A DNA stretch of 25,553 nucleotides from Synergistaceae bacterium (GTDB lineage: Bacteria; Synergistota; Synergistia; Synergistales; Aminobacteriaceae). Both the position numbers and the translations under genes were made by a program. The notes under the pieces are model-generated. The model had not been told where the DNA came from. It made no database searches and worked only from the letters and a program-made list of their open reading frames with translations. This document shows, piece after piece, positions 84 through 22,779 of this stretch (positions within the stretch are counted from its first letter, which is position 1; the number at the start of each line of letters is the position of its first letter). The stretch is from the NCBI GenBank assembly GCA_017475805.1, contig JAFVEW010000236.1, forward strand, positions 1 through 25,553, in the 5' to 3' direction.

Positions 84-389
84 ATGAGTTCTAATGAGCT
101 GTATTTTACAGTTTTAGGCGCAAGCGGTGCCGGTAAGACTACTTTACTTGCTTGCATGAATAAATTTTTCAGTGAAGTTTTTGCTGGCGTCTTTTCTCCG
201 GGCGATCAAAAAACTTTTGAAGTTTTATCTGATGCTTACAAACTTCTTGAGAACGAAGCCAATACAAGTGAGTTGGAATTCGGTTCTCCTATAAAAAATA
301 CTGAAGAAATACGCGAGTATTTTTTTAATATTAACGGCAGAATCATAAAATTCCTGTGCATTTTTATGATTTTCCGGGCGGATGGTTAA
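84..389 (+). CDS. N-terminal part of double-GTPase protein (first P-loop), frame broken
   Basis: This is the start of a P-loop GTPase. A GASGAGKT Walker A motif lies at residues 12-19, next to the N-terminus, and AAAGGA stands about 12 bases upstream of ATG 84. The frame stops at 389, but the last 13 residues look like nonsense. In the -1 frame the same DNA reads IPVHFYDFPGGW, the expected G3 (DxxG) strand. The two frames join cleanly at the AAAA run 347-350: one extra A, or a -1 slip there, gives an uninterrupted protein of about 1180 residues. I therefore treat this entry and the next as one gene with a single-base frameshift. The cause could be a true mutation, an assembly error in the homopolymer, or programmed slippage. 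Only the first 89 residues should be trusted. Confidence 0.8.
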   Translation: MSSNELYFTVLGASGAGKTTLLACMNKFFSEVFAGVFSPGDQKTFEVLSDAYKLLENEANTSELEFGSPIKNTEEIREYFFNINGRIIKFLCIFMIFRADG

Positions 390-3300
390 ATTCAGCTGAT
401 GACAATGCGAATTTCAAAAGAGTTTCAGATATTGTGAATAAGTCTGATGTTATACTCGCAGTTGTCAATGCGCCTTATTTAATGGAATACAAAGGGAAAT
501 TTATTGAACGGGCTAAAATCAATGAGATTCAGAAATTGTTAGCTGACAGCCTGCAAAATCTAAACGGGGATAAATTAATTCTCATTGTCCCGTTAAAATG
601 CGAAGCCTACATGAAAAACGTTGATGATTTATACAATAAAATCAAAGAGGCGTTCAGCGATACAATAGATTTAGCAGAAAATAACGATAGAGCTGCATTA
701 GCCGTTTTGCCCGTCAGGACTGTCGGTAATGCTAAGTTCAGCCGTTTTGATTTTGAAAAGGACGAAATAGTCAGCGAAGTATTTAAAAAGCAGGCTAATT
801 CAAAGTTTATGCCTGAGAATATTGACCAGCCGCTTCGTTTTGCAATGAGTTTCTTTTTAAATCATTTTGAGCTTCCGAAGGATTTAGGGAAACTCCGTGA
901 CGATATTCAGAAGGGCTTAAAAATAGAGCAATCGCAGATTTTATCCGGCTCAGGTTTAATCACAGGCGAAGGAATAATAACACGTATTCCGCTCGTTGAT
1001 GCCGTCGATGCTGTTGATGGCGTAAATCCTTCAGCTCCGTCAGCGTCCTCAAAGCCGTCTTCGAGAATAGAAAAACAAGATAAAAAAACAAACTCTCATG
1101 ATTATAAAATTGCAATCATGGGGGCAACCGGAGTAGGAAAAACTATTTTTCTTGGTTCATATTTCTATCTTGCGGCCATTGAAGCTACAGCGAAATATAC
1201 TATAGAGCCATCGTCGCAGATAGTAGCCAAGAGAATGAAAGATTTGAGTGTAAAGCTCGTTAAAGATAAAATTATCGAAATGGGCACGTCTGTACGTGTA
1301 AATTTTAGCTTTTCTGTTGCTTCACTCAATAATATGAACGTTGAACTTTACGATATTCCAGGCGGTCATGCACAAGACATGGACGACTGGGCGCGTGAAA
1401 AAATCCTTCCGGACTTACTCAGAGCTGACGGTGCATTATTTTTTATTTCCGGCGAAGATTTAGTTAACAATCCCGATAAAACTTGGGAAGATACAATGGT
1501 GTATCAAAAAGCAATTTCACTGCTGCGTCAAAATGTTGATAAAAGTTACGGCGGCCGTGCTGATATTCCGATTTATTTTATAATAACAAAGGGCGACACA
1601 ATTCCTGATGTCTCTCTTGATGATTTGAAAAAGCGCATACATGCATTAATAAAAAGAGCGTCTGCTTCACCTGAAGAAGCCGGCGTTATTGAAAAAATGT
1701 TTTTTAAAAAAGGCAAAAATGTAAAAATTTATAAAACCGAAGCGATGGGGAAATGGCCTTCAGCAACAACAATTCCGCCTGACTATCAGCCCGTAAACGT
1801 TGCTGAGCCTATGGATGACCTATTGCGCACAATGTACGACGCCCGAAAAGGTAACATAAAAACTCGCCGCTGGCTTAAATCTATCGCTGCTTGTATTGCT
1901 TTCGGCGCTTTATTGGCAGGCGTTTATAATTGGGATCATAGTAATTGGCGTAAAGCACAGGATAATATTAGAGCAGCTTTGAGAAAAGCCGATTATCCGA
2001 CAGCGCAAAAAATTATCGAGAATTTTAAATCGCCTACGGTATTTTCAATTTTGTATCCGAAGTTTTTACGCGCTGACAGTAAAATTAATCAAGGTTATGC
2101 AATGTACGAAGAGACACTATACGCTTTGATTCAATCGGATATTGCGGCAATAAATGAGGATATTTTGCCGACAGTAAATCAAGATTTTATGGAAGCCGTT
2201 GAAAGAATTAATAATTATTTAGCTGTCAAAAACTTTGCAGCCGTTGCGCCCGCACACTACGAACGAGTTAAAAGCAAAAAATGGTATTTTGACATGGCTA
2301 TATTATTTAATTTTAACGTCTCTCAGGCAGTGCAGTCTCCTGATGAATTTATGAATCTAATTTCACGCTGTCTCGAACAAGAAACGCCCGAAGCATGGAA
2401 GCCGAGAATAAATTCAAAAATTGAAAGTCTCATACAAGCATGGGGTCAGGCTGTGCCTTCTAATACTACGCCTGATATTTTGCAGTCGTATATTTCTGCA
2501 GCTGAAAGTTTGTTAAATAATCAAAGTCTGTCAGACAGAGCGAGAAACGAGCTTGATTTATATAAAAAGAATTGGGAAGCAACTCTCGATGAACATTATA
2601 TAGCTCTCGTAAAACAATGGCTTTCAGAGTACCGTCAATATACGGACATATCGCAATTACAAGCGCTTATGAAATCTAATCCCGATATGACTCCGGCAGC
2701 AAGAAAATTGCTGGCTGACGGAATAAATGAGCTTGACAGAGTTCGAATTGATAAAATTGCCGGAAGTCTTGCAAAATCGCGTTCAATCGAAGAGTTGTCA
2801 AGAGAAACCCGTAAACTCGGCACAGACGCAAATAATGACGTAATTAAGTCTGTTGTAAATTCCACTACGCAGGATTTAACGAAAGAAGAATTAAGCAAAA
2901 TTAGAGAAACGGCTTCGGGCTACTTAAGAGACGGCCGTTTCGCGGAAGGAAGAAAGACAGTACTGAATAGTATAAATTTGCTTCGTAATTCAATTAGGGG
3001 CGGTACGCTGTCTCAAAAAGATTATGACACAATCGCGGGCGGCGTTGATAATTTTGAAAAATCACTCTTAGGCGAAATTCATGACGCTCATCTCAACGCT
3101 TGCCGTCAGACTTTTAATAAGTATAAAAACAGCCTAAAAAATAATGACATTACAGCTTGTATCAACGAGCTTAACGATTTTATCAGAACATGGACGGATT
3201 CAAGCGAACTCGCAACAGTTCAAAAGGTTTTGGATTTCTTAAATACAATTCAAAACGGCATTCATGGAACTCTCATAATAGTCGGCGGCGATTTCAGCGA

Positions 3301-3625
3301 TGCAGACAGTTGGTCCGATACTCCTGATGTTTTTGTTGAAGTTTATCAGAATAATCAGTTGCTCTTAAGAACAGAGGTTGAAACTGATAAAATACGTCCT
3401 GCTTTTAAAGAAAGTATCGCTTATACATGGAAAATAAATGATTCTCCGCTTACGTTCGCAGCCTATGAGAAAGACGTAACGAGCAATGAGCTGTTATTGT
3501 GGCAGCAAGTTAATTTATCAGGCTTTTTCGGGTACGAAAATCTTTCACAAGTCTTGAAAAAGTCCAACGGCTGCGCATTGCAAATAAAATTTGACGCGAA
3601 TGTTCCATCGTGTCCGTGGCGTTAA
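356..3625 (+). CDS. Double-GTPase membrane protein with helical region and C2-like C-terminus (main part)
   Basis: This is the main body of the frameshifted gene that begins at 84; GTG 356 is not its true start. Visible domains (numbering from 356) are: the rest of GTPase 1, with G3 DFPGG at 5-9 and a G4-like VPLKCE near 79-83; a Ser/Pro linker near 225-240; GTPase 2, with P-loop GATGVGKT at 256-263, G3 DIPGG at 333-337 and G4 TKGD at 411-414; one membrane segment near 505-525; about 440 mostly helical residues; and a beta-rich C-terminus from about 970 resembling a C2 domain (DVFVEVYQ, then a basic strand, then AAYEKD). Basic residues (KTRRWLK) precede the membrane segment, so the GTPases should be cytoplasmic and the rest outside. 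The architecture resembles the double-GTPase proteins (DO-GTPase) of bacterial conflict systems; assignment to a Pfam family is inference. It is the first substantial gene of the operon. Confidence 0.8.
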   Translation: MHFYDFPGGWLNSADDNANFKRVSDIVNKSDVILAVVNAPYLMEYKGKFIERAKINEIQKLLADSLQNLNGDKLILIVPLKCEAYMKNVDDLYNKIKEAFSDTIDLAENNDRAALAVLPVRTVGNAKFSRFDFEKDEIVSEVFKKQANSKFMPENIDQPLRFAMSFFLNHFELPKDLGKLRDDIQKGLKIEQSQILSGSGLITGEGIITRIPLVDAVDAVDGVNPSAPSASSKPSSRIEKQDKKTNSHDYKIAIMGATGVGKTIFLGSYFYLAAIEATAKYTIEPSSQIVAKRMKDLSVKLVKDKIIEMGTSVRVNFSFSVASLNNMNVELYDIPGGHAQDMDDWAREKILPDLLRADGALFFISGEDLVNNPDKTWEDTMVYQKAISLLRQNVDKSYGGRADIPIYFIITKGDTIPDVSLDDLKKRIHALIKRASASPEEAGVIEKMFFKKGKNVKIYKTEAMGKWPSATTIPPDYQPVNVAEPMDDLLRTMYDARKGNIKTRRWLKSIAACIAFGALLAGVYNWDHSNWRKAQDNIRAALRKADYPTAQKIIENFKSPTVFSILYPKFLRADSKINQGYAMYEETLYALIQSDIAAINEDILPTVNQDFMEAVERINNYLAVKNFAAVAPAHYERVKSKKWYFDMAILFNFNVSQAVQSPDEFMNLISRCLEQETPEAWKPRINSKIESLIQAWGQAVPSNTTPDILQSYISAAESLLNNQSLSDRARNELDLYKKNWEATLDEHYIALVKQWLSEYRQYTDISQLQALMKSNPDMTPAARKLLADGINELDRVRIDKIAGSLAKSRSIEELSRETRKLGTDANNDVIKSVVNSTTQDLTKEELSKIRETASGYLRDGRFAEGRKTVLNSINLLRNSIRGGTLSQKDYDTIAGGVDNFEKSLLGEIHDAHLNACRQTFNKYKNSLKNNDITACINELNDFIRTWTDSSELATVQKVLDFLNTIQNGIHGTLIIVGGDFSDADSWSDTPDVFVEVYQNNQLLLRTEVETDKIRPAFKESIAYTWKINDSPLTFAAYEKDVTSNELLLWQQVNLSGFFGYENLSQVLKKSNGCALQIKFDANVPSCPWR

Positions 3626-3638
3626 AAGGCGTTAAAAA

Positions 3639-4829
3639 ATGAGAAATTTATATTATTTCGTCTTTACATCAGGCGAAGAGGGCGTTCACGGTCTTGACTG
3701 GGGAATTAAATTCTCATCTAAAGTCTTAGGAGATGCCGTAAATTTAGATATTAATTACAGAGATTTACTGGAAAAATTCGGCCTGTCTCCAAGTCTTGAA
3801 CGCCCTAATAAAGATAACGATGTAGGACTGTTACTGCTCCCGAATAACAGCGGTAAATTATTAATATTTATATTTCCGGGAAAAGATTTGCAAGAAAGAT
3901 TAAATACTATTGCTATAGCTTGCAATATTCCTATAGACTTGACGTTTTCTTTCAGTGTTCGTGAAGCTGCGCGCAGAATTTGGAGCGCTAATGATTTAAT
4001 GAAAATATCGGGGCGAAATTCCTTTCGTCCTGATACTCTCATTTTCCCTGATGAACCTGCTCCGGATATCGAGTATCCTTTTGCTGCGTCTTCCGGATTA
4101 ATGCAATGGCCTGAAAATAATGGCTATTTATCAATCGATCGCAATATCAGAGAGCTTTCACTTGTTCGGGCTGAAGTTATTGATGAGCCTGTTATAGTTA
4201 GTAATAGCGATAAAATTAAAAAAAGCTTTCAGTTGCTTAAAATTTTAATATTTGCCGGCGCGATTGGTGTAATTTTTTGTGTTGGATTTTATATATTACC
4301 GGAAATCTTAGATCTTGATGAACAAACTGTTATTATTGAAGAGCCTATTAAAGTTCAGCAGCAAACAAAAAGTCCGGATTTACCGCCGGTGCTTCAATCT
4401 CCGACAGTTCTGCAAAGTGAGAGCAGTGATAAGCAGATCGCAAAACAAAAAGATAATTCTAAAGAAATAGCAATTAAAAAAGAAATAGAAAAAGAAATAG
4501 AAAGAGCAACAAAAAAAGAAAAAAATAATTTGCGTGAAGCTTTAAAATATTTTAAACCAACGAAAGACGGAGCTGTAATACGTTTAGATAAGGGGAATAA
4601 ATTTTTATGTTTCGATATAGAAAATTATAACGAGAATGAATTTTTATCAAAAATTGAAAATCATGAAGTTCGGTCGCATATTTATATAGAGTCCAATAAT
4701 CGCGGACTTTATGTCGTTCGTTGTTATTTTTGGAACGACGATGAAAAATTAACTATAGGCCTGATCGATTTTGATATAGCCTTAGAAATATTTATAAATC
4801 AGGCTATTAAAGTTATGGAGGCGAAATAG
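3639..4829 (+). CDS. One-pass membrane protein with short copy of the shared C-terminal domain
   Basis: The function is not recognised. The N-terminal ~190 residues start with YYFVFTSGEEGVHGLDWG, which loosely recalls the N-terminal domain of GTPase-associated proteins (GAP1-N); this is a weak resemblance only. A membrane segment lies at about 196-222 (ILIFAGAIGVIFCVGFYILP), with lysines before it and acidic residues after, giving N-inside/C-outside topology. A Pro-rich then Lys/Glu-rich charged linker follows (about 240-300). The last ~95 residues are a shortened version of the domain shared by the next three genes: an HIYIESNNRGLYVV strand and a terminal EIFINQ helix. The start ATG has a weak AAAAGG site and lies 13 bases after the preceding stop. 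It probably links the cytoplasmic GTPase to the secreted partners. Confidence 0.75.
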   Translation: MRNLYYFVFTSGEEGVHGLDWGIKFSSKVLGDAVNLDINYRDLLEKFGLSPSLERPNKDNDVGLLLLPNNSGKLLIFIFPGKDLQERLNTIAIACNIPIDLTFSFSVREAARRIWSANDLMKISGRNSFRPDTLIFPDEPAPDIEYPFAASSGLMQWPENNGYLSIDRNIRELSLVRAEVIDEPVIVSNSDKIKKSFQLLKILIFAGAIGVIFCVGFYILPEILDLDEQTVIIEEPIKVQQQTKSPDLPPVLQSPTVLQSESSDKQIAKQKDNSKEIAIKKEIEKEIERATKKEKNNLREALKYFKPTKDGAVIRLDKGNKFLCFDIENYNENEFLSKIENHEVRSHIYIESNNRGLYVVRCYFWNDDEKLTIGLIDFDIALEIFINQAIKVMEAK

Positions 4830-4831
4830 AA

Positions 4832-6595
4832 TTGAAAAAAATTTTGCTCATGCTTACGGCAATTTTTATCGTGAGTTATTTACTCGTAACTTCAGCCTGT
4901 GCGCAGCCTGTTACAGTAAATTATTCTGTTACGTTTGATTTTGACGATTTTAAAGATTGTTCAGAGCCGCAATGTAAGCTTTTATCTCGTTTATGGGAAC
5001 GCTGCAGCGATGATATACAAAATTATTTTGCTTCGCTCGCGTCTTCTAATAGCATCGTTGATGAAACAGTTGAAAACAATAGCATCAATGTGAATATAAC
5101 TATATCGCACCCCTCGACTTTGACAAGCTACTTCAAAAAAATTGGGAATTATGTTTATGATTTCTGGGCGTCTGAATCCGGCGCAACGGAGGATTCACGC
5201 ATAAAACTTCAAGATATTCATGAAAAAGCTGAAAATACAGCAAGAGAAATTTTAGAGCGTATCACAACAAGCGGAGAGCTGTATTGCTTGGATTTTGTCA
5301 AAGACGCATCTTATAGCGAATTAATTTTTGGAAATAATGATGTCAGCAAATTAACTTTTTTTGATGAGAATACAAATTTTTTAGACTCTGAAAGTCTATT
5401 AAAAAGCTTAAAAAAAATTTGCAGCGATGAGCTTGTTGTAAGAAGCAATACACGTTTTATGTGCGCTCCGACTGTTGATTTATCTCCTGAAAATTTTGAA
5501 ACATTTCTGCATGATATAGCTGCAAAGGCTGTGTTTAATGCTGAAAAATTGCAAAATCAATCAGGAGATTTTGATTCATCTTTACATAAAAAATTAACGA
5601 GTTGGCTTGAAAAAAATAACAATGAGATAACCGGCACATTCAGATTTTTCTTTAATACCAGCCGTGAGGGCGTTTATATTGTTGAAGCATTGAAGTATCC
5701 TGAAAAAGAAAGCGTTCTGAGCATTGCGGGCGAAAACGCGGCGGTTATCAACTGTAACTTGGAACGCGAATTGGAAAAATCACTTTCTCTTTTATACGGC
5801 GACCTTGATTTTTGGCTCACAAGAGAATCCAGCTTCTTAGATGATCCAAATATAACGCTTGATAATTGCTTAAAAATATTTATTGATGATATTAAAGACC
5901 GTCTTGCTGCAAGTAAGATAACTGAAGCTGATATTGAAGAATTAAAAAAGCGAATCAGCGATTGGCGGCTGCTTGAGTTTTTTGAAAAAGGAGCGTTAGA
6001 AAAGATCGATTCTGTTGCTGCAATCAGGAACGATGATTATTTTATTGAAGGCAATTTAGCATTTTGTAAAGCATTTACAAACTCTATAGCAAATTATGCC
6101 TTTATAAACGAAGATAAATTTAAAGAGTTTTTAAGCTCGTTTAATGACGGCGAACTTTCGACGCGCGGGCAAAGTTCATTTAGTTTCAAATGTTCTAAGA
6201 CTTGGAGACCGGACGCTGATTTTCTTTTACTTTCAATTAAGTCTTTGAAGCCCGAATACGCTGATGAAACAGAAAATCTTTATGAAGACAGCGGCATAAC
6301 GAGATTATTTTTTAAGACTAATATTAAAAACGTGTATTTAGTAGCGATTTTGCAAAATGATAAAGACGCTAAATTTTATATTGCTTCCCGTCAGTCATTT
6401 TTCAGCAAAGATAGACTTAACGAGCTGCTTCGCGATGAAAAAGTAATAAATTACGAGTATGAACGTGGCCGGATGACGTTTAATCTTTGGATGCCTGACA
6501 GCAGACTGCTAAACGGAGATGCTGAGCAGTGCATAAATATTTTTGTAAATCAATTCTTGCAGCGGGCTGAAAATTTTGAAACTGCAAGATGGTAA
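4832..6595 (+). CDS. Secreted protein with two copies of the shared domain
   Basis: The function is unknown. It starts at TTG 4832, 10 bases after GGAGG 4817-4821. A clear signal peptide (MKKILLML... to about residue 25) ends in ACA|QP, a type I cleavage site; the cysteine is not in a proper lipobox. After that comes a short module with FKDCSEPQC and INVNITISH, which recurs in the next gene. Two copies of the shared domain follow, at about 150-370 and 390-587. Each contains a pattern RFFFNTSREGVYIV / RLFFKTNIKNVYLV and ends in CLKIFI / CINIFVNQ. The TTG is only 2 bases after the preceding stop. The protein is expected outside the cytoplasmic membrane. It could be a scaffold or ligand-binding partner; no enzyme motif is visible. 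Confidence 0.8.
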   Translation: MKKILLMLTAIFIVSYLLVTSACAQPVTVNYSVTFDFDDFKDCSEPQCKLLSRLWERCSDDIQNYFASLASSNSIVDETVENNSINVNITISHPSTLTSYFKKIGNYVYDFWASESGATEDSRIKLQDIHEKAENTAREILERITTSGELYCLDFVKDASYSELIFGNNDVSKLTFFDENTNFLDSESLLKSLKKICSDELVVRSNTRFMCAPTVDLSPENFETFLHDIAAKAVFNAEKLQNQSGDFDSSLHKKLTSWLEKNNNEITGTFRFFFNTSREGVYIVEALKYPEKESVLSIAGENAAVINCNLERELEKSLSLLYGDLDFWLTRESSFLDDPNITLDNCLKIFIDDIKDRLAASKITEADIEELKKRISDWRLLEFFEKGALEKIDSVAAIRNDDYFIEGNLAFCKAFTNSIANYAFINEDKFKEFLSSFNDGELSTRGQSSFSFKCSKTWRPDADFLLLSIKSLKPEYADETENLYEDSGITRLFFKTNIKNVYLVAILQNDKDAKFYIASRQSFFSKDRLNELLRDEKVINYEYERGRMTFNLWMPDSRLLNGDAEQCINIFVNQFLQRAENFETARW

Positions 6596-6619
6596 TTTGA
6601 AAGGAGATTGTTATATACA

Positions 6620-8236
6620 ATGATTGTCAAGAAAGTCAAGAAAAAAATTGTTGTTTTATTGCTAATCGCTTCTTTTTTGGCGTTAGCATGTGCGGCGTCG
6701 GCTAATTTCAAAATTTCTGTTAATGAAAAAAATTTTGAATCATGCTCAGAGGCAGCGTGCCAAGAAATTCTTGATTTATTCCGTAAACTTGAAAAAATAT
6801 CTGCGGAAAATGAGAATATAAATATCTCAATAAAAGTAACTCATGGTGCTGAATGGTCGATGAGCCAAGGCTTTGAAGCTCTAAAGTCATACGGCAGCGC
6901 CGGAATTGACTCGCTCATACAATACGGCTTAGAAGGATTAAATTATCTTAAGTCTTATGATGAAGAAGGCTGGAAATATTTAGTGTCTTGCGGCGAAAAG
7001 GGTTTGCAGTTTTTGAGTTTGTGCGGGCAAGCCGGTTTAGAATACTTGCTTGGGCATGGCGATGAAGCTTGGAAATATCTTTTACAGTGCGGAGATGCCG
7101 GAGTTGAATTTTTGAAATCGCTGGGCGATGCCGGATTATATTATTTACGCAACCATAGCGAAAGTTGGTCTTATTTCTCGCAATTAGGCGAAAAGGGACT
7201 TGAGCTTTTAAGGCCGCACGCTGAAGAAGGCTTGAAATATATCATCGAGGGCGGCTCGCAGGGCTGGGAATACATAAAGAGCTGCGGCGCTGCAGGATTT
7301 GAATTTATAAAATCTCTTGGGCAAGCTGGCTTAGATTATGTCTTATCTTTCGGTAAAGCCGGCTTAGACTATTTATTATCTTTTGGAGCGGAAGGCCGGG
7401 ACTTTTTATCTAAGTTTAATTACGATGTTACAGAACTTCTCAAGGATATTCCGGTTGAAATTCCTGAACTTCCAAAGGAATACAAACCCGATAATATTAT
7501 CAAGACTATTTTCCCTCACGCTGAAAACGTCAATATTAATACCGGTGAGATTAAGCGTTTTATTGAAGCTGATGCCCTTGAATGGATAGATGTTGTATCT
7601 GATTTCAAAGACAAAGATTATTTTAACGAAGGGGCGCTGAATTTCTGCCGCGAATATACAAATTCGTCTTCAAGCTATGGATTTGCAAACAAGGAAGATT
7701 TAATAAACAAAATTAAAACTTTTTATGGCGGCGGCTTTGCTTGTGATACTAATCGAAAATTCTCGTTTAATTTGTCAAGCAGCACGGTTCTTTGGAATAA
7801 CACGATAAGATCTGCAGGCGAGGAATCGTTCTTTTCTTTGAAAAATTTACAGCCCGGCAAATCCGGCGATATGATAAGCCTTGCACTTAGGCTTCTTCAG
7901 ACTTTGAAAGATAAGAACATCGATAATAACAGCGCAGTAAGATTATTTTTCAGGACTAATTACGATTGGCTTCAAGTCGTCGCTGTTATAAGAGAAAATG
8001 CTGATCCGACTTATTATCTTGCCGGAAACAGGCCGCTTCTCGAAAAAAATTCGCTTGTTAAAACTTTAATGGATAATAATATAATAACGTTAGATTCATC
8101 AATGGAAAGATTGATATTTAATTTGTTGAAATCTGACAACCGTTTGAAATTCGGAACAAATATTGATACGTGTCTTGATGTTTTTATAAATCAAGTTTTT
8201 GAAAGTCTTGACGCTATCGCAATAGAAAGGAAGTGA
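6620..8236 (+). CDS. Secreted protein with sixteen 11-residue repeats and shared C-terminal domain
   Basis: ATG 6620 is chosen over TTG 6608 because TTG lies one base from the AAAGGAG site (6600-6606), while ATG gives a spacing of 13 and opens a good signal peptide (MIVKKVKKKIVVLLL, cleavage near ASA|NF). The mature N-terminus repeats the Cys-containing module of the preceding gene (FESCSEAAC, INISIKVTH). Residues 90-264 (6887-7411) are sixteen tandem 11-mers of the form SxGxxGLxYLx; one copy is 10 residues long. Trp replaces Leu in copies 3, 6, 9 and 12. The C-terminal ~210 residues are a full copy of the shared domain (RLFFRTNYDWLQVV, CLDVFINQ). The repeats could form a long amphipathic or hendecad helix outside the membrane. 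Function is unknown. Confidence 0.82.
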   Translation: MIVKKVKKKIVVLLLIASFLALACAASANFKISVNEKNFESCSEAACQEILDLFRKLEKISAENENINISIKVTHGAEWSMSQGFEALKSYGSAGIDSLIQYGLEGLNYLKSYDEEGWKYLVSCGEKGLQFLSLCGQAGLEYLLGHGDEAWKYLLQCGDAGVEFLKSLGDAGLYYLRNHSESWSYFSQLGEKGLELLRPHAEEGLKYIIEGGSQGWEYIKSCGAAGFEFIKSLGQAGLDYVLSFGKAGLDYLLSFGAEGRDFLSKFNYDVTELLKDIPVEIPELPKEYKPDNIIKTIFPHAENVNINTGEIKRFIEADALEWIDVVSDFKDKDYFNEGALNFCREYTNSSSSYGFANKEDLINKIKTFYGGGFACDTNRKFSFNLSSSTVLWNNTIRSAGEESFFSLKNLQPGKSGDMISLALRLLQTLKDKNIDNNSAVRLFFRTNYDWLQVVAVIRENADPTYYLAGNRPLLEKNSLVKTLMDNNIITLDSSMERLIFNLLKSDNRLKFGTNIDTCLDVFINQVFESLDAIAIERK

Positions 8237-8242
8237 TACAAA

Positions 8243-9613
8243 GTGAATGAACCAACGCAAAAACCTGAAAACGCGCAAGAAGAATTTGACTTGAGTGTCT
8301 TGCAGAACACGCTGCTAAGCTTGACGCATGGTTTTGATTTTAAAGATGCGCAAGCAAAACTCGCAGAACTCGAATCTTTTAAAAGAGAAAATCAGGACTT
8401 GCGGAATAAGCTTGATAAATTGAGTGAGAAAAATCAGGCACTGCAGAGTGAACTTGATAAATTGCGTGAAAAAGATAAGGAACGGCAGGGTGAACTTGAT
8501 AAATTGACGCAGGCTTTTAAAGATGTGCAAAAAGAAAATAAAGAAACGACTGATAACTATCAAGGCTTGCATGAAACAGTGCAAGGAATTGCGGTGGGTT
8601 TTGCAGATTTTAAAAGTCAAAATCAGGCACTGCAGGGTAAACTTGAGGGTAAACTTGATGATTTGACGCAGGATTTTGAAGAAAAAACTAATGACTTGAG
8701 CAAAGAAAATCAGGGCTTGCGTCATAAAATTTTGCACGTGTTTGTGCTTGTATTGTTGCTGATAGCCGGCATATTGACAGGATATTATTTGCTTATGCAA
8801 AACATGGACACATTAAGCAATGCAATTAAAATTTTGCGCCAAACGGCGGCTCTGCGCATTGAAGAGCGAGAACTAAAAAATAGAGCCGAAGAGGTTGTAG
8901 CAACTGTAGCAAACGACTTATTGCTAAGAAAATACTACAACGCTGGTGCGCTTGTTTATGTTGATTGCGCCCGTAATTTTTCAAATAAAGATTATATTGA
9001 AAATATTGAACGCGGGGAAACTATCGCAGGTAATTTGTCAATTCCTAAATTTTTTTGCAAAGAATATTATGAATCTTCGTCTGAAAATGGATTTTTTAAT
9101 GCAAGCGGCTTAAAGGCAGCATTTAAGTCGCTTAATAAGGGAGATTTGAGCATAAGAAGCAATGAGCGTTTTATGTTCACAGCCGATGATAATTCTACGT
9201 TGTCGGAAAAAATAGAATTACTCGCTAATGAATCTTTATTTTCGCTTAAAACGCTCCAAGAACGGCCTGGAATTTTTTTAGAAAATTTAGAAGAAAAAAT
9301 TGCCCGTTATTTTAAAGATAATAAAAATAACTTAAATGACGAGATTTTTTTTCGTTTTTTCTTTGCTACGGCTTCGGACGGCATTTATCTTGCAGCAATC
9401 GTAAATAACAGCAGATTAATCGGCTGTTATCTTGCTGCAAATTCGCCTGCAGTCAGCAGAGCTTCGATTTCAGAAGCTCTAAAAAAAAATTTAAATCAAA
9501 TCGGCGACGGTTTAGATATTCATTTATTGAAACCTGATGCAAGGCTGAATAACAGCGTAGATTTTGATACTTGTATCGACGTTTTTATAAAGCAATTAGC
9601 AGAGAGGAGTTAA
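8243..9613 (+). CDS. Coiled-coil, one-pass membrane protein with shared C-terminal domain
   Basis: It starts at GTG 8243 behind AAAGGAAG, 4 bases after the preceding stop plus a short spacer. The N-terminal ~165 residues are a strongly charged coiled coil containing three near-identical 14-residue (double heptad) repeats, KLDKLSEKNQALQS and two variants, at 8408-8533. A membrane helix follows at about 170-190 (VFVLVLLLIAGILTGYYLL), preceded by RHKILH, so the coiled coil is cytoplasmic. The C-terminal ~220 residues lie outside and are a full copy of the shared domain (RFFFATASDGIYLA, YLAANSPAV, CIDVFIKQ). The layout suits a rod that connects a cytoplasmic partner, perhaps one of the GTPases, to the extracytoplasmic proteins. 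No family is recognised. Confidence 0.78.
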   Translation: MNEPTQKPENAQEEFDLSVLQNTLLSLTHGFDFKDAQAKLAELESFKRENQDLRNKLDKLSEKNQALQSELDKLREKDKERQGELDKLTQAFKDVQKENKETTDNYQGLHETVQGIAVGFADFKSQNQALQGKLEGKLDDLTQDFEEKTNDLSKENQGLRHKILHVFVLVLLLIAGILTGYYLLMQNMDTLSNAIKILRQTAALRIEERELKNRAEEVVATVANDLLLRKYYNAGALVYVDCARNFSNKDYIENIERGETIAGNLSIPKFFCKEYYESSSENGFFNASGLKAAFKSLNKGDLSIRSNERFMFTADDNSTLSEKIELLANESLFSLKTLQERPGIFLENLEEKIARYFKDNKNNLNDEIFFRFFFATASDGIYLAAIVNNSRLIGCYLAANSPAVSRASISEALKKNLNQIGDGLDIHLLKPDARLNNSVDFDTCIDVFIKQLAERS

Positions 9614-9617
9614 AAAA

Positions 9618-11930
9618 TTGATATACGAGAACATTCAGGCAATAATACAACAAAGACAGCCTATGGCTTTTCGTGTTGCAAAAGTGCGTGAGGCTCTGTC
9701 TTTAGTTGTAAATAATTTTGAAAAATTCCATCTTCAGTGTATGGAAATTTTTAAGGACAAAGCCATTGCTAACGAATTTGGGAATATCATAAAAATTCCT
9801 GAAGACTTCGAGAAAATCACTGCTGAAATTACACAACGCAGAGATGAATTAAAGCATCTCGAAAGACGCTTAAGCCGTGGTACGCTTAATATTGCGGTGA
9901 TAGGGCGGGCACGTCAGGGAAAAAGCCGTTTGCTTCAGACGATAACAGGCTTAAGCACGACAGAAATTCCGGACGGCGACGGGCAATTCTGTACAGGTGT
10001 CAGAAGCGATATAATTAACGAGGATACGGATTTGACATATGCCGTCGTTAATTTCTTAAGCGAAAGTAAATTTATAAATGAGAAAGTTGCCCCTTATTTT
10101 GAAGCATTAAGAGAATATAAACCGGACAGTTTCTCTATTACGCCGACGTCTTTACAGGAATTTAAAAATATTCCGCTTCCGGCAGTGAGTTCGTTTGAAA
10201 AATACTCTGACACTCAAACGGCAATGAGACTTCATTTACAAAATTTGACTGAGTTACAAAGTCATGCCGCGCAATATGAAGAATTATTAAACAGCCGACC
10301 GCTTAGAATTAAAAAAGAAGAAATTCGTAAATATGTCGCTCAAGATGATAGCGACGGCAACAGAGTTTACTTTAATCATTTTGCGGTTGATAATGTTGAA
10401 ATTTATTGCAAATTTCCTAAGCAAGATGTTGGAAATCTGAGGCTTATAGATCTTCCCGGATTGGGAGATATGCGCTTTGGAGATGTCAGCAGACTTATAA
10501 ATGCTTTGAAAGATCAAGTTGATCTTGTTTTATTCCTTTCAAAGCCCTCAAACTCCGGACAATCTTGGAACGATGTTGACATTGATTTATACAGCAAAGC
10601 AAGAAGTGCGTTAGGCGAAAAACTTCCGATTGAACGCTGGGCATTCTGGGTTTTTAATAGAGATTCAAGACTGGGTGCAGACAATGAAAAACAGTGCAGA
10701 ATGCTGCAGGAAACGATAGCGCAAGCTCAAATTAAAGTTGCTGATACTGTTATAGTAGATTGTACTAACGAAGAAGCTGTGTCAACAGATTTAATTAACC
10801 GCGCACTCGAGCATTTATCAAAGAATATCGAACAAAATGATAAAGAATACGCGGAAAATTTACAAAACGTGTTAAATGCTACTGTAAGTGATATGCGGCA
10901 CTTCGCTGAAAAAATTCGTAGGTCTCTCACAGAAGGCGATTCAGATATGGATAGAGATTACGATACTTTTGAAGTACTTTTTAGCGGTCTTTGGGAAGAT
11001 ATCAGAATGGCAATGAATAATCTTGTCGGCCCGGATTCTGAATTAAGGAAAAATCGCGAAAAGCCATACGAGGAACTTCAAAATCAAATTGAAAAAGTTC
11101 TTGATGACGAAGGCATCCAACTTCCACTGACTGAAAATGATATTCAAAAATATTCAGTAACTGGCGGCGGAATACTGAGAACCTACGAAAATGCATTAGA
11201 CTATTTAAGAACTCGTCTAAGCGGGAAACTGCAGGAACGCCTCGATGAAATTCTTACAGATGCTTTACAAGCAATGAAAAGCCAATTCTGTAAAATATTA
11301 GCGACGACAGGACGCCTAAAACTTCAAGACAACGGCCGTTTTAAATTTGATGATTATAGGCTCTTAGGAGAAATGATCGACTTTATTGAAGCTTCAGGGT
11401 ACAGTCAGGATATGCCTAAACTTCTAACAGGGCTCAAACTTTTAGATACTTGGACTATGAGCTATAGAAGTTTCATTCAGCACCGTGTGCGTAAAGCCTT
11501 GAACGGCCTTGACCCTAATGACGAAGAATGTATATCTCAAGGCAGGCCTAACGATGCAGCACAAGCCTTCAAAATGCTTGAGATAGCATATAAAGAAACA
11601 GCTGACAGAGTTAAGCAAGCTCTTAAAGATGTTTACACAGAGCCTAATGAAGCTGCTTTTGCCGTTGCCGAAGAATTTAAAGATATTATGATACGTTCAG
11701 ACGAGATGTTATCGATGTCCGAAGATAACACGATTGAAAAGCAGCGTCAAAGACATAAGTACGCTTTAACTCTCCAATGGAAACGTTTTTATAGGCCGAT
11801 TCGCGGAGATATATGGCCGGAAGAATTTGGAAGTTCGCAAAAGAGACGGGATATAAATACAAAACTTCGGGGCTCGCTCGATACGTTATTGCCGCTTCTC
11901 GCTAATGAAAAATTTGAATTTTTGCGTTAA
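9618..11930 (+). CDS. Dynamin-like GTPase
   Basis: This is a large GTPase of the dynamin-like type, last gene of the operon. TTG 9618 is well placed 8 bases after AGGAG (9605-9609). About 90 helical residues precede the P-loop GRARQGKS (96-103). G3 is DLPGLGD (278-284), and the likely G4 is NRD at 347-349 instead of NKxD. The G1-G3 distance of about 180 residues is long and implies an insertion in the G domain. The remaining ~400 residues are predicted helical, as in dynamin stalks, ending QRRDINTK-like basic and LLPLLANEKF. No transmembrane segment is visible. In this family nucleotide-dependent oligomerisation on membranes is typical; here the partner is probably the membrane assembly encoded upstream. 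It is confidently a P-loop GTPase; dynamin membership is somewhat less certain. Confidence 0.8.
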   Translation: MIYENIQAIIQQRQPMAFRVAKVREALSLVVNNFEKFHLQCMEIFKDKAIANEFGNIIKIPEDFEKITAEITQRRDELKHLERRLSRGTLNIAVIGRARQGKSRLLQTITGLSTTEIPDGDGQFCTGVRSDIINEDTDLTYAVVNFLSESKFINEKVAPYFEALREYKPDSFSITPTSLQEFKNIPLPAVSSFEKYSDTQTAMRLHLQNLTELQSHAAQYEELLNSRPLRIKKEEIRKYVAQDDSDGNRVYFNHFAVDNVEIYCKFPKQDVGNLRLIDLPGLGDMRFGDVSRLINALKDQVDLVLFLSKPSNSGQSWNDVDIDLYSKARSALGEKLPIERWAFWVFNRDSRLGADNEKQCRMLQETIAQAQIKVADTVIVDCTNEEAVSTDLINRALEHLSKNIEQNDKEYAENLQNVLNATVSDMRHFAEKIRRSLTEGDSDMDRDYDTFEVLFSGLWEDIRMAMNNLVGPDSELRKNREKPYEELQNQIEKVLDDEGIQLPLTENDIQKYSVTGGGILRTYENALDYLRTRLSGKLQERLDEILTDALQAMKSQFCKILATTGRLKLQDNGRFKFDDYRLLGEMIDFIEASGYSQDMPKLLTGLKLLDTWTMSYRSFIQHRVRKALNGLDPNDEECISQGRPNDAAQAFKMLEIAYKETADRVKQALKDVYTEPNEAAFAVAEEFKDIMIRSDEMLSMSEDNTIEKQRQRHKYALTLQWKRFYRPIRGDIWPEEFGSSQKRRDINTKLRGSLDTLLPLLANEKFEFLR

Positions 11931-12030: not shown

Positions 12031-12588
12031 ATGAACTATGATATAAATTTCAGATTTGTAACGCGGACTTTGAAAGAAGATTACCGTGTTTATACAAATT
12101 CAGGCAAAGAAATTTTAAGCGATATTGCAGAATTTGCGCCGCTTAGAAAAAAATGCGGAATTCTTTCTGAAGATGGAGGCTGTGCAGTAATCTTTGAAGA
12201 TTTTAACAAAATATTTTTAATTGTCTCAGGTCTTCAATCAGGAAGAAAAGATTTTGCGGGGCGTGCAATTCGATTTTCATTTTGCAGAATATTTCAGAAT
12301 GGCGATAAGATCGACGCCTATAAGTCTTTTATGAAAGCAATAACTCAATGGGAAAATATGCAAATTGAACTTCAAAGTTTATTTCAAGAACAACATAATT
12401 ACGTATTTTTCGATGAGAAAGCATTTATAAATTGGCTGCAAGATGGGATTTTGCCAAGAAATAATTTTGAAATTTGCAAACACGGAGATGTTCGAAGGCT
12501 TTACGATGTTATATGGCCGCCGCAAAACTGTATGCTTAAATGGCTTCTTTCAGAAAATGATGAAATTTTTTGCCGCGAATTTTATTAA
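12031..12588 (+). CDS. Hypothetical protein, 185 aa
   Basis: A soluble protein of unknown function. ATG 12031 is preceded by GAGGT with good spacing. It stands alone between the terminator of the first operon and the second operon. A likely core is a beta-rich stretch with a FLIVSGLQSGRKDFAGR motif followed by IRFSF (about residues 66-90); this looks like a conserved surface or binding loop. The C-terminal half is helical and Trp-rich (WLQDG, WPPQNCMLKWLL). No signal peptide or membrane segment is visible. Its position between two GTPase operons suggests an adaptor or regulator of one of them, but nothing in the sequence proves that. Confidence 0.65.
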   Translation: MNYDINFRFVTRTLKEDYRVYTNSGKEILSDIAEFAPLRKKCGILSEDGGCAVIFEDFNKIFLIVSGLQSGRKDFAGRAIRFSFCRIFQNGDKIDAYKSFMKAITQWENMQIELQSLFQEQHNYVFFDEKAFINWLQDGILPRNNFEICKHGDVRRLYDVIWPPQNCMLKWLLSENDEIFCREFY

Positions 12589-12814: not shown

Positions 12815-14212
12815 ATGATAATGAAGACATTTATGTTTGCGCGTCATGCTATTGCTAAAAGTTTTTTGTTTAGTTCGTTCAGAGCTGATTATCTCTGTGC
12901 GCTTGAATATTTTTTAAGAAAATTTGCAGCAGATGATCCGGCAGCGCATGAGTCTTTTAAAGTTTACGTTGATAAGCTTTTATCTAATGGAATTAACGGA
13001 ATGCCTTATTCATATTTCGGGGACGCCAAAGCCCTTGATATTATTCGTTCATTTTTGGGGGCAAAATCAGATTTTCTGACTTTTTATTATAGATTTTTCT
13101 GCGCAGCTCTATTGATAGACTGCCTTTCGTTATTGGCATTTTCTGATTTAGATTTAGATAAAGCCCGTGCAATTTTAAGCGATTTTTACAGTCTTTCACC
13201 AAAAAGGTATCATCAATTTTTTAAAAGCTTATTTGATTATCTTTATGCCGAAGACCATAGCAAACCTGTCACTTTCAAAGGTATTTGGATAGCTAAAAAT
13301 CAAATTGAATGTTGGAACGCTGAAAAAATCTTTGAACAAAAGCCCTTGAAGAAAATTTTATTCACGGCTTCAATGAGCGCTGGAAAATCAATGTTGATTA
13401 ACGCGATAGCGGGCAAGAAGATAACGCGGACTAAAAGTACAGCAGCAACTGGAAGAATTCATTATATTTACAATAAGCCTTTTGAAGACGGCCTAACCGC
13501 AAAATTGGAAGATAACGGAAGTCTCACAATGGACGCTTCTGAAAAAGAACTTATGGATGAGAACAATAATGACAGCGTCCAAGTTTGGACTTATTTCAGG
13601 TCATTTTTATCGAATAAATTCCGTTGGTGCTTAATCGACACGCCTGGCGTAAATTTTTCTCGGAATCCCGAACACGCTGAAATTACGCACAAAGCTATTG
13701 AAAAAGAACCTTGGGATTATTTAATTTACATCGTTAACGGCGAATATATCGGAACAATTGACGATCGGCAGCATATTGAATATATTGCGGATCATGCTCC
13801 CGGAAATAAAGTTATCTTTTTGTTAAACAAACTGGATAATTATAGCTTAAAAGACGATTCAATTCCTGATGCGGTTTCAGACCTGCACGATGAACTTGAA
13901 GAAATCGGGTTCAAACATCCTGTAATATGCCCGATTTCTGCTTATACGGCTATGCTTGCGAAAAAATATCTTTTAAAGTCTGATTTTAATCCCGATGAAA
14001 AGTATGACTTTGACCTTCTGCGCCGCAAATTTATGAAGGCTGACTATGATCTCTCAGTTTATTCAAAATTTTTGACGGACGAAGACAGAGCGCAGCGTTT
14101 TGATATGCCGAAAAATTTTTTAAAAAAAGAAAATCCGATAATCAAAGACTGCTACAACTTGCTTATTAACAGCGGGCTTTCAGGCTTTGAAAAAATTTTA
14201 TCCGAGGGGTAA
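12815..14212 (+). CDS. Short dynamin-like GTPase
   Basis: The start is ATG 12815 or ATG 12821; the latter is 10 bases after AAAAAGG and may be preferred. About 175 helical residues precede the G domain. The P-loop is ASMSAGKS at 185-192, with Ala in place of the usual first Gly. Further motifs are a Thr-rich switch I (KSTAATG), G3 DTPG at 275-278 and G4 NKLD at 338-341. Only about 125 residues follow G4, so there is little room for a dynamin stalk. It lies 6 bases upstream of a second, longer dynamin-like gene with the same SAGKS signature. Paired dynamin-like proteins of unequal length are known in bacteria and can form hetero-oligomers. This one may be the regulatory or nucleating partner. 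Confidence 0.8.
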   Translation: MIMKTFMFARHAIAKSFLFSSFRADYLCALEYFLRKFAADDPAAHESFKVYVDKLLSNGINGMPYSYFGDAKALDIIRSFLGAKSDFLTFYYRFFCAALLIDCLSLLAFSDLDLDKARAILSDFYSLSPKRYHQFFKSLFDYLYAEDHSKPVTFKGIWIAKNQIECWNAEKIFEQKPLKKILFTASMSAGKSMLINAIAGKKITRTKSTAATGRIHYIYNKPFEDGLTAKLEDNGSLTMDASEKELMDENNNDSVQVWTYFRSFLSNKFRWCLIDTPGVNFSRNPEHAEITHKAIEKEPWDYLIYIVNGEYIGTIDDRQHIEYIADHAPGNKVIFLLNKLDNYSLKDDSIPDAVSDLHDELEEIGFKHPVICPISAYTAMLAKKYLLKSDFNPDEKYDFDLLRRKFMKADYDLSVYSKFLTDEDRAQRFDMPKNFLKKENPIIKDCYNLLINSGLSGFEKILSEG

Positions 14213-14218
14213 TTCAGT

Positions 14219-16519
14219 ATGGTAGAAGTTTTTATTAAGTACAATCCGTACAAACTCGAAACGGATGCTAAAATTAATGGCGAAGATGTCAGAGAATACG
14301 GGCCTTTCTTAAAAAAAGGGAAGCGTTTGCAGGAATGGATTGAGAAATTGCCCGACATGCTCAGAGAAGTAGGCAATGACAAAAATTTTCACATTGTCTT
14401 TCGCGGCATTTCTCCTGACTTTGAAGATTTGCAGCTCATCGCCGAAAACGCAAAAAAAGACGGCTTTAACATTATGTGCGAGCATGAACATGCAACAGAA
14501 ACTGAAGATAAGATCCCCGTAATTGAGAAGATTTTCGAGGATATTCAAAAATGCCCGTATGACTTTGCTGAACTAAGATTGCCGGATTTAAGGGACGCTT
14601 TTGAAAAAGCAAAAAATGAAGAATTTAGCGTCGATGTTATTGGAACGATGAGCGCAGGAAAGTCCACAGTAATAAACGCTTTGCTTGCGCATAAGCTTAT
14701 GCCGTCGCAAAAAAAAGCTTGCACGGCGAAAATAACTGAAATTAAAGACCGCGATGAATTAGGCGATGTCTTCAATGCAGACGTTTACGGCAAGGACGAT
14801 AAGCTTATTGAGCATATTGAGAATTTGACCTATGAAGATATGCGAAGGCTTAATCGTAAAGAAGATGTTTCGAAAATTAAAATTGAAGGCAATATTCCTT
14901 TTGTTTCTTCAGACGGTAATTCACTTGTGCTTGTTGACACGCCCGGCCCTAATTCAATTCGACAAGAACATCAGAGAGCAACTTACAACATGATTGAGCA
15001 GTCATCAAAAACTCTCGTGCTTTATGTTCTGGATTGTCAGTTTGAGGCTTTAGATACCAGCAACGTACTTGACTACATTGCTAAAAGCATGAGTGTCGGC
15101 GGCAAACAGTCAAAAGACCGTTTTATTTTTGTCGTTAATAAACTCGATGATCTCAACTCCAGCGAAGACAGCGTAGAAGAAGACCTCGAAGAAATTAAAA
15201 AAATTCTTGAAGAGAAAGGGATAAAAGACCCTAATATTTTCCCTGCTTCTGCTTTGACGGCTCTCGATATCAGGACAATTTTCAGCGGTGTAGATTTAAG
15301 CAATTTTGATCGTAATAATGCTGATGACGAAACCAAAAAAGCTTTCGGGAGAATTGAGTCACTCAACAGTAATAGTAATAATGGTGAAAAGCATTTCGAA
15401 ACATATGCTCCGTTAATTCCAAGTCTTAAAAAGAAAATTGACGGCGAATTGGCAAAGGCAAAAAACGAAAATGATCCTAAGGCTGAAGCCCTTGTTCATA
15501 GCGGTATTCTTTCTGTTGAAGCAGCTATCAGCTTGTACGTTGAAAAATACGCAAAGACAGCAAAAATTAAAAACCTTGTCGATACTTTCAACGCAAAATT
15601 GGGAAACGCAGAGACTATTGAAAAGCTAAATAAAGAAATCGCGTCTAATAAAAATTTTGCTGAAAAAATTGAAAAAGAAATCATCGTTATTCAACGTGAG
15701 CTTCAAAGCGGAGAAAATGCGCGTGAATTTGAGCAGAAAATTTCAGAAATTAATTACAAACGAGAACTTGCTGATGTTATCAAAAATAAGAAAATAGAAA
15801 TCCAAACTGAAAAAACGCGCAAACTTGAGGCTTCAAGGGGAAAACTTGATAAACGGCAGGCCAAAAATGCTTGTGAAAACCTTGCTAAATTCGCCGAAGA
15901 GCTGCAAGCAAAGACCGTAGTTGAGCTCGAGAAAGCTATTTCCGCTCACGTACAGAAAAATGCGCAGGATCTACTCGATCAATATAAACAACGGCTCGAG
16001 AATTTAACAGGCGAACTCGAAACCAGCGATAAAATTGAATTAAAACCGTTGGAACTGATGAGCGGAACTGTCAGCGGCAACGCGGATAATTTGATTACAA
16101 ACCTTGCAAAAACAGAACGAGTTAAAGCAGGCGAACGCTGGGTTGAAAACAGAGATAAACACTGGTGGAATCCGTTTACATGGTTCGATCCCAGCGGCTG
16201 GTACGAAAATACTTACAAAAATGTAGAATATATCGAAGGCGAAGAACTTGCGCAGAAATTTTTGGCGCCTTTTGAGGAAAATCTCTATAAAAACATTGAA
16301 ACCGCCGAAAGATATGCGGCTGAGCAAGCTGAAACTGTCAAAGAGGCTTTTAAAAAAGAATTTAAGAAACTTGACAAAGTTTTGCATGAAAAACTCGAGG
16401 CTCTTTCACAAAAAGCTCAGGAACGCGATGACACAGGCACAGCGATTAAAGAATCCGAAGAGCGGCTTGAGTGGCTTCAAGGTATTCGCGGAAGAATTGA
16501 CGCCATTTTGGAAATCTAA
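14219..16519 (+). CDS. Dynamin-like GTPase with Trp-rich hydrophobic segment
   Basis: ATG 14219 follows GAGGGG at a spacing of 9. The N-terminal ~100 residues form a compact domain (VEVFIKYNPYKLETD..., RLQEWIEKLP) that I cannot name. The G domain has P-loop GTMSAGKS at 142-149, G3 DTPG at 240-243 and G4 NKLD at 307-310. From about 420 the protein is long and helical with coiled-coil character, as in bacterial dynamin-like stalks. Near residues 640-665 lies a Trp-rich patch, HWWNPFTWFDPSGWYENTY, between helices. It is a candidate membrane-inserting paddle. The length of 766 residues fits bacterial dynamin family proteins. With the preceding gene it forms a likely membrane-remodelling pair. Confidence 0.85.
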   Translation: MVEVFIKYNPYKLETDAKINGEDVREYGPFLKKGKRLQEWIEKLPDMLREVGNDKNFHIVFRGISPDFEDLQLIAENAKKDGFNIMCEHEHATETEDKIPVIEKIFEDIQKCPYDFAELRLPDLRDAFEKAKNEEFSVDVIGTMSAGKSTVINALLAHKLMPSQKKACTAKITEIKDRDELGDVFNADVYGKDDKLIEHIENLTYEDMRRLNRKEDVSKIKIEGNIPFVSSDGNSLVLVDTPGPNSIRQEHQRATYNMIEQSSKTLVLYVLDCQFEALDTSNVLDYIAKSMSVGGKQSKDRFIFVVNKLDDLNSSEDSVEEDLEEIKKILEEKGIKDPNIFPASALTALDIRTIFSGVDLSNFDRNNADDETKKAFGRIESLNSNSNNGEKHFETYAPLIPSLKKKIDGELAKAKNENDPKAEALVHSGILSVEAAISLYVEKYAKTAKIKNLVDTFNAKLGNAETIEKLNKEIASNKNFAEKIEKEIIVIQRELQSGENAREFEQKISEINYKRELADVIKNKKIEIQTEKTRKLEASRGKLDKRQAKNACENLAKFAEELQAKTVVELEKAISAHVQKNAQDLLDQYKQRLENLTGELETSDKIELKPLELMSGTVSGNADNLITNLAKTERVKAGERWVENRDKHWWNPFTWFDPSGWYENTYKNVEYIEGEELAQKFLAPFEENLYKNIETAERYAAEQAETVKEAFKKEFKKLDKVLHEKLEALSQKAQERDDTGTAIKESEERLEWLQGIRGRIDAILEI

Positions 16520-16534
16520 CAAGGAGGCTTGGCT

Positions 16535-16987
16535 ATGCCGGTAACTTCAGACTTCAAAAAAGCAATAAAAGAAAAAAACGTAGGCCGCGTCAGAATAATG
16601 ATGAAAGACAGCTTAGTGCGCGATCCGTCATTTGAGGAATTTGACGAGATGACCCGCGAAGCTGAAAAATATCTCGGCTCGGGCATACTTTACGACAGGC
16701 ACGACGGCGAAACGTTCAGCACTGATAAGTCAGACTGGAATAAAGCTTACATGAATAATCTTCTGGTAGATTTAATGTCTAATTTTTCGTGTGAACGCCT
16801 TGATCATCTTAAAAGCGTCTGCGGTGTAATTTATGCTGACGAAATCAAGAACTCTCAGCAAGCCAAGAGAGTAACAGAAAAGCACCAAACGAGCCGTGAA
16901 AAAAACAGCAGTTCATTAATATTTATTATAATTGCTGCTATTTTAATAATTACTCTGCTTATTTTTATAATCATGAGGAATTTTTAA
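16535..16987 (+). CDS. Small tail-anchored membrane protein
   Basis: ATG 16535 is chosen because AAGGAGG (16521-16527) is 7 bases away; TTG 16529 is too close. Residues 1-105 make a soluble helical domain with VRIMMKDSLVRDPSFEEFDEM, YDRHDGETF, and NFSCERLDHLKSV. Similar pattern blocks recur, as far as I recall, in proteins beside bacterial conflict genes, so this may be a portable adaptor domain. After a polar linker the last ~25 residues are a single hydrophobic helix (LIFIIIAAILIITLLIFII) followed by MRNF, making it a tail-anchored protein facing the cytoplasm. It lies 15 bases after the dynamin stop. It may recruit the dynamin pair or the HerA ATPase to the membrane. Confidence 0.75.
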   Translation: MPVTSDFKKAIKEKNVGRVRIMMKDSLVRDPSFEEFDEMTREAEKYLGSGILYDRHDGETFSTDKSDWNKAYMNNLLVDLMSNFSCERLDHLKSVCGVIYADEIKNSQQAKRVTEKHQTSREKNSSSLIFIIIAAILIITLLIFIIMRNF

Positions 16988-22699: not shown

Positions 22700-22707
22700 T
22701 AAATATT

Positions 22708-22737
22708 TTGAAATATAAGTTATAATTACTTTATAAA
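22708..22737 (+). promoter_or_regulatory. Possible sigma-70 promoter of the PLD-like gene
   Basis: TTGAAA (22708-22713) and TATAAA (22732-22737) are spaced 18 bases apart, 42 bases before the next ATG. AT-rich context lowers certainty. Confidence 0.4.
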
Positions 22738-22779
22738 TATGGGCATTCAACATCTTAAGATAGAAAGGCAGAGATAAAA

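Follow-up and report, generated by a model that had tools for sequence, protein, structure and literature searches.

The 25,553-nucleotide stretch of DNA analyzed here (contig JAFVEW010000236.1 of assembly GCA_017475805.1, from a Synergistaceae bacterium; hereafter the window) carries a run of genes, all on the forward strand from position 84 to at least 12588, which encodes a double GTPase with a predicted membrane anchor together with partner proteins and a dynamin-like GTPase (DYN). Two modules, usually found in separate genomes, are combined in this gene set. Our tentative reading, whose chances we put at close to even, is that it represents a DO-GTPase system of a variant type: a double GTPase predicted to span the membrane, and likely switched by a partner with a predicted longin-type domain, would relay outside events to the dynamin-like GTPase.

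A composite of two gene modules

Six open reading frames (ORFs) were found on the same strand between positions 356 and 11930, separated by intergenic gaps of 2-13 bases, or seven when the frame at 84-389 is included. The gene order was double GTPase, A396, B587, C542, D456, DYN and s185. The initial annotation had described a six-gene operon: its six frames were recovered, on one strand and with small gaps, but not its end at 11930, since the small protein s185 (12031-12588) is a conserved neighbour belonging to the set and the operon extends past that point.

In order to evaluate the distribution of these genes, 185 Synergistota genomes were searched. The GTPase profile matched 28 of them, of which 18 carried a soluble GTPase and 12 a membrane GTPase, three of these having both; a row of G050 covering only the rod part and a 62-residue row of G069 (G069:C280) were set aside. 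The soluble GTPases were homologous to the first GTPase domain of the window protein, and the membrane proteins to its second GTPase domain, helical outer part and C2 tip. DYN was present in 16 genomes (18 matched, with the 50- to 63-residue fragments of G053 and G070 dropped), s185 in 15 (19 matched; the weak rows of G013, G016, G069 and G166, E 2e-4 to 6e-4, were dropped, as were weak second rows of G063 and G046) and A396 in 7. All 16 genomes with DYN also had a soluble GTPase, and 15 of the 16 had s185. After merging 29 DYN rows into 20 pieces, 17 pieces were located less than 2.5 kb from a soluble GTPase, the remaining ones being a G001 copy within its composite operon and pieces of G083 and G075 on other contigs. 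A396 adjoined the membrane GTPase, directly downstream, in the seven genomes having it (7/7). In five genomes the membrane GTPase stood alone, either cut by contig ends (G058, G029) or with no A396 there (G031, G027, G030), and in G049 the membrane GTPase lay upstream of an A396 fragment. A broken copy of the membrane GTPase, with two stops, was also observed at L002:9989-12667, where the neighbouring A396 is a fragment followed by an outer-domain protein.

Linkage within modules was strong (Fisher p 3e-21, 4e-21 and 6e-10), whereas the two modules co-occurred in three genomes (p 0.07). The full set was detected in a single other genome, G001, as loci L001 and L041 on two contigs that break inside C542. 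One six-gene machine, as first proposed, is not supported by these genomes; the separation in other genomes that the initial annotation named as refuting holds for the modules, which are mostly apart, but not for the genes of any one module, whose linkage is tight. Both the window lineage and G001 have a fusion of a soluble-type GTPase with the membrane GTPase, followed by A396, the proteins with the outer domain, DYN and s185; downstream of the composite, G001 bears further copies of DYN and s185, with two soluble GTPases between them.

Within the DYN module, the order DYN-GTPase-GTPase-s185 was found in 10 of 15 loci, DYN-s185-GTPase in four and DYN-GTPase-s185 in one. At least one of four recurring neighbour families (HAD hydrolase, PTS permease, flavin reductase and GGDEF protein, as in L048) was located near the module in 10/15 loci. 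Database relatives of the GTPase and A396 with a named source were from Synergistota, and the nine loci in named genomes belonged to Synergistales or Synergistaceae, including Fretibacterium. Pairs of database relatives such as P0006 and P0104 (GTPase, DYN), P0005 and P0128 (GTPase, DYN), and P0004 and P0057 (GTPase, A396) suggest that more such operons exist.

The double GTPase protein

The double GTPase protein (84-3625) comprises two GTPase domains and a predicted membrane segment, helical outer part and C2 tip. The product of 356-3625 matched DO-GTPase2 (PF19993) with an E value of 7e-10 and 39.3 bits, above the Pfam cut-off of 27, which agrees with the earlier naming of DO-GTPase systems as relatives. 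Two frames that overlap at 356-389 divide the first GTPase domain in this contig, 84-389 carrying the P-loop and 356-3625 the remainder. The database protein P0002 is one intact chain of 1180 residues containing two P-loop domains, and differs at 1 of the 1089 residues of 356-3625; the frame break is therefore taken to be local to the contig and not a trait of the family.

The claim of a membrane anchor and a large outer part was also upheld, as the sole hydrophobic segment of the 356-3625 product lies near residue 506 (1871-1927, predicted by hydropathy) and is followed by about 565 residues. The second GTPase domain (1097-1852) has a predicted Rag/Arf-like fold, the best rows of the fold search being Rag/Gtr, tied with Arl2. 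Based on the secondary structure of the P0002 model, the outer part at 1943-3253 is predicted to be helical. For the outer part and tip, the first Foldseek row was the Munc13 MUN-C2 region, with an E value of 2e-7 but a TM-score of 0.07. At the outer end, a C2 fold is predicted (3254-3622), with Foldseek probabilities of 1.00 to many C2 domains and PF00168 (C2) present in the relatives P0010 and P0015. Calcium-type acidic residues are incomplete in the C2 domain of the window.

A396 and the shared outer domain

A396 (3639-4829) was modeled as a one-pass protein with an inner domain (3639-4067), a transmembrane segment (4242-4298) and an outer domain (4566-4826). Fold searches with the model predict a longin-like inner, cytoplasmic domain resembling TagF, a type VI accessory protein. 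The outer part diverges faster than the inner one (24% vs 66% identity to G001). A profile search of A396 by sequence against the PDB gave two matches, both attributable to chance.

The four middle proteins (A396, B587, C542 and D456) are related through a common C-terminal domain. B587 (4832-6595) carries it twice (5615-5905 and 6275-6574; domain E 1.5e-8 and 5e-42), after a signal-peptide-like start. C542 (6608-8236) also begins with a signal-peptide-like stretch, followed by amphipathic 11-residue repeats (6833-7402; 35% identity at lag 11) and one outer domain (7913-8212), and does not diverge fast (63% identity to G001 over the part present). D456 (8243-9613) combines a coiled coil, a transmembrane segment (8738-8794) and the outer domain (9323-9610). 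The two secreted proteins and the two further one-pass proteins described by the initial annotation were thus recovered, the latter (A396 and D456) with one strong hydrophobic segment each.

A profile of the outer domain was built from the last ~100 residues of B587, C542, D456 and their G001 relatives, and was searched against 439 sequences (ORFs of 30 loci, window proteins and 58 database relatives of A396). At E ≤ 0.05 its matches were confined to three families, namely its own, F19 and A396. Among A396-family rows, a C-terminal match was present in 38/66 and absent in 28/66; that of the window A396 was weak (E 0.003) and that of the best relative strong (2e-9). Since two carriers have signal-peptide-like starts, the shared domain is most likely extracytoplasmic, which provides independent support for the cytoplasm-in orientation that had been assigned to A396 and D456 from their charges.

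DYN and s185

DYN (9618-11930) carries a P-loop and weak matches to MMR_HSR1 and Dynamin_N, and forms a full-length family of its own, linked to DO-GTPases. The matches, on which its earlier description as dynamin-like bears, fall under the Pfam cut-offs (18.7 bits against 27 for Dynamin_N). The DYN profile recovered 510 proteins, and among the 120 of them listed PF00350 was present in 49. A weak NCBIfam match to slr1306 was also observed. A viral origin of DYN was considered and rejected, given that phage records yielded no DYN match and none of 57 candidate stretches on viral contigs was confirmed. No report of DYN beside DO-GTPases was found in the open-access papers searched.

The s185 family is conserved beside DYN and DO-GTPases. 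A transmembrane segment was predicted in 15 of 16 relatives from these loci, the window s185 and its G001 ortholog having none. Kinship between s185 and A396 was also rejected: profile-profile probabilities were 7.2% with full alignments and 0.3% with the N-terminal parts, and hidden Markov model (HMM) scores were no better than the best shuffled controls. A D-x3-R turn is kept in both families (A6 residues 83 and 87; A3 residues 74 and 78), a likeness that is weak alone.

Relatives beyond Synergistota

Named proteins among the 120 listed DYN relatives included members of Synergistaceae and of filamentous cyanobacteria, the latter with 33-36% identity over at least 95% of the length. When a cyanobacterial member was searched against plasmids, 10 records matched, and four of these (Nostoc carneum, its near-duplicate Aulosira laxa, Nonomuraea and Streptomyces) showed a triplet in which DYN and a DO-GTPase-like protein are followed by a third protein, 290-340 residues long, whose single membrane segment is close to the end. 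By Pfam, the GTPases of Nostoc and Nonomuraea scored above the cut-off for DO-GTPase2 and that of Streptomyces below. A Stanieria plasmid showed DYN followed by a sub-threshold DO-GTPase. No such triplet was found in the plasmid records of Pseudanabaena, two Calothrix, Nostoc ATCC 53789 and Anabaena cylindrica. In Nostoc ATCC 53789, GTPase genes lie beside DYN on the opposite strand, and in Anabaena cylindrica a GTPase and a DUF87 gene are near a DYN fragment. The profile with which DO-GTPases outside Synergistota were identified ("sol") was built from 29 sequences, inadvertently including two rod or tip pieces from L007; Pfam placed L066 and L069 above its cut-off, whereas Stanieria (L068) and Streptomyces (L076) did not reach it.

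Conversely, searching plasmids with the GTPase of Nonomuraea returned five records, namely the same four triplet plasmids and Geminocystis, where no DYN was detected among the genes checked around the DO-GTPases. The Geminocystis plasmid (L080:4821-10536) shows three DO-GTPase-like proteins interleaved with two similar-looking proteins of 417 and 467 residues. The third genes of the cyanobacterial and actinobacterial loci were considered as counterparts of s185 or A396, but no sequence tie was found; they agree only in position and in the single membrane segment near the end. A tblastn search of plasmids with two of them returned only the queries themselves.

Neighbouring genes

Upstream, positions 1-65 hold the tail of a gene that by eye resembles the C-terminal end of an AI-2E-family transporter, which in L001 is encoded just before the operon. 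Directly after the operon are two more dynamin-like genes (12815-16519), whose G domains share 27% identity; PADLOC gave a LeoBC-like match for the first of them (E 1e-8). A small one-pass protein with a weak EssA match (16529-16987; E 0.009) comes just before a HerA gene, which opens a row formed by a HerA/DUF87 ATPase, an NS_2 nuclease and a YezG-like immunity gene (17045-21449). The same trio was found beside a membrane GTPase/A396 pair at L004 (16140-21099), and at L074 a DUF87 gene is next to a GTPase close to a DYN fragment. A WYL-type regulator and a protein with two transmembrane segments and a weak PLD-like match follow at 21704-23538. In L004, the GTPase/A396 pair has an HSP70-like protein on either side (L004:8362-9843 and L004:14247-15923); one theme of the GAP1-N2 systems described in PMC7159879 likewise includes HSP70 genes.

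Proposed mechanism and alternative explanations

In the variant of DO-GTPase systems that we propose, the two G domains would pair, as put forward for DO-GTPases in their founding description (Kaur et al. 2020, PMC7159879). GTPases do come in pairs in the dataset: P0002 has two P-loop domains, and soluble GTPases occur in tandem in 10/15 DYN-module loci. The outer parts of both proteins, the secreted proteins and the coiled-coil protein would together recognise some envelope component, most likely lipid, which the predicted C2 tip and the 11-residue repeats may touch. The shared outer domains could bind each other as well as the outer part of the GTPase protein. Anchored in the same membrane, the predicted longin-like domain of A396 would set the nucleotide state of the GTPase, an outer change moving it against the paired GTPase domains much as longin and roadblock proteins, which set the nucleotide state of Rab, Rag and MglA (PMC10933270), act on their partners. 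The GTP state might then recruit or release DYN, the presumed output, which would act on the membrane, either in envelope upkeep or in defence against an attacker. Of the nucleotide-driven machine across the membrane envisaged initially, what is retained is a GTPase system with a predicted span through the inner membrane, but not a single six-gene machine.

An anti-phage or conflict system of the DO-GTPase kind, in which outer domains would detect an attack and DYN would be the membrane effector stopping the infected cell, is conceivable but on the whole unlikely. DO-GTPases have been described as conflict systems (PMC7159879), the outer part of A396 varies fast, DYN relatives occur on plasmids, and the HerA/NS_2/YezG cassette lies downstream in the window as well as beside the GTPase/A396 pair in L004. 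However, PADLOC gave only weak or coiled-coil matches for the six operon proteins and no convincing core component, no effector domain listed in the accessible part of PMC7159879 was found by Pfam in the operon core, and the proximity of the DYN module to the same metabolic genes in 10/15 loci looks like stable inheritance.

A housekeeping role in envelope tethering or lipid homeostasis, with the C2 tip and amphipathic repeats joining two membranes and the dynamin and GTPases remodeling the inner one, is improbable. The predicted C2-like tip and helical outer part (first Foldseek row Munc13, at a TM-score of 0.07), the 11-residue repeats, the dynamin-like gene and the recurring chromosomal setting of the DYN module are in line with it. 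Nevertheless, the presence of the system in only 28 of 185 Synergistota genomes indicates that it is not essential to the phylum, lipid binding is conjectural, and the set of calcium-type acidic residues is incomplete in the window.

Similarly doubtful is a bolder form of our proposal, a transmembrane counterpart of Rag/GATOR in which a Rag-like double GTPase and its longin regulator, each with an inner-membrane anchor and a large outer part, would read the state of the envelope and command a dynamin; the TagF-like fold would make the switch a cousin of type VI control parts. A machine for secretion or injection akin to type VI, in which the GTPase would play the role of TssM and A396 that of TagF, is very improbable, and its contractile form is mostly refuted: the predicted TagF-like fold of A396 and the TssM-like topology of the GTPase protein speak for it, but the VipB sheath gene (PF05943) was detected in none of the 24 carriers searched out of the 28 matched, with a control plasmid and E. 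coli matching, and neither IcmF/TssM nor TagF was among the Pfam matches listed at E ≤ 1 (25 of the 29 for D456, the best-scoring ones). A chance neighbourhood of unrelated genes, suggested by the low co-occurrence of the two modules, is hardly credible and is refuted for the modules themselves by their internal linkage, the domain sharing and the same composite order in G001.

Comparison with known systems

Among bacterial dynamins, LeoA and LeoBC resemble the dynamin-like genes of the window through weak HMM matches, but their gene context is different, and DYN forms a separate family, full-length and also present in cyanobacteria.

The topology of TssM is like the one predicted for the window GTPase protein. 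The parallel with TssM and TagF of type VI secretion drawn by the initial annotation gains from the predicted TagF-like fold of the A396 inner domain, but not from sequence matches, and the carriers searched showed no sheath gene. The comparison with TagF is one of folds, as a TagF_N search of a control plasmid matched nothing and was hence uninformative.

MglA and MglB of Myxococcus are soluble, single-domain proteins. They likewise consist of a bacterial small GTPase and a roadblock-type regulator, whereas both window partners are anchored and have outer parts.

Eukaryotic nutrient sensing relies on paired Rag GTPases and longin-domain regulators, each Rag having a C-terminal roadblock domain. 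Rag/Gtr GTPases with longin regulators (GATOR1, FLCN/FNIP, Lst4) share with the window system paired GTPase domains and a predicted longin-like partner, and Rag/Gtr, tied with Arl2, heads the fold matches of its second GTPase domain. In contrast, the window system is bacterial and predicted to be membrane-anchored with outer parts, the likeness seen is one of fold, and no roadblock scaffold was identified, no dedicated roadblock search having been made. A doubled GTPase, its second domain Rag/Gtr/Arf-like by predicted fold, is encoded next to a predicted longin-like protein, both with predicted anchors and outer parts, together with a dynamin-like gene. With parts that lend themselves to expression, the idea of a GTPase switch that operates through a bacterial membrane can be put to the test.

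The DO-GTPase/GAP1 systems share with the window the PF19993 GTPase family, GTPases in pairs or doubled, membrane segments, an adjacent downstream gene for a partner, and beta-sandwich fusions beyond the membrane. They differ in that no GAP1, GASH or FNIII match was listed by Pfam for the window operon (GAP1 at E ≤ 1; for D456, the best 25 of 29 matches), and GAP1-N2 was detected neither in G001, G002 and G052 nor in four plasmid records, with the control matching; A396 or s185 could be divergent GAP1 counterparts. As no GASH/FNIII third component was matched, the system is classified as a variant of DO-GTPase systems and not as a typical member. To the known themes it adds a dynamin-like GTPase, a predicted longin-like partner, a predicted helical outer part with a C2 tip, and a repeated outer domain. 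The word dynamin is absent from the accessible main text of PMC7159879, and DO-GTPase systems would thereby gain two kinds of partner unnamed in that part of their founding description, a dynamin-like protein and a longin-like anchor.
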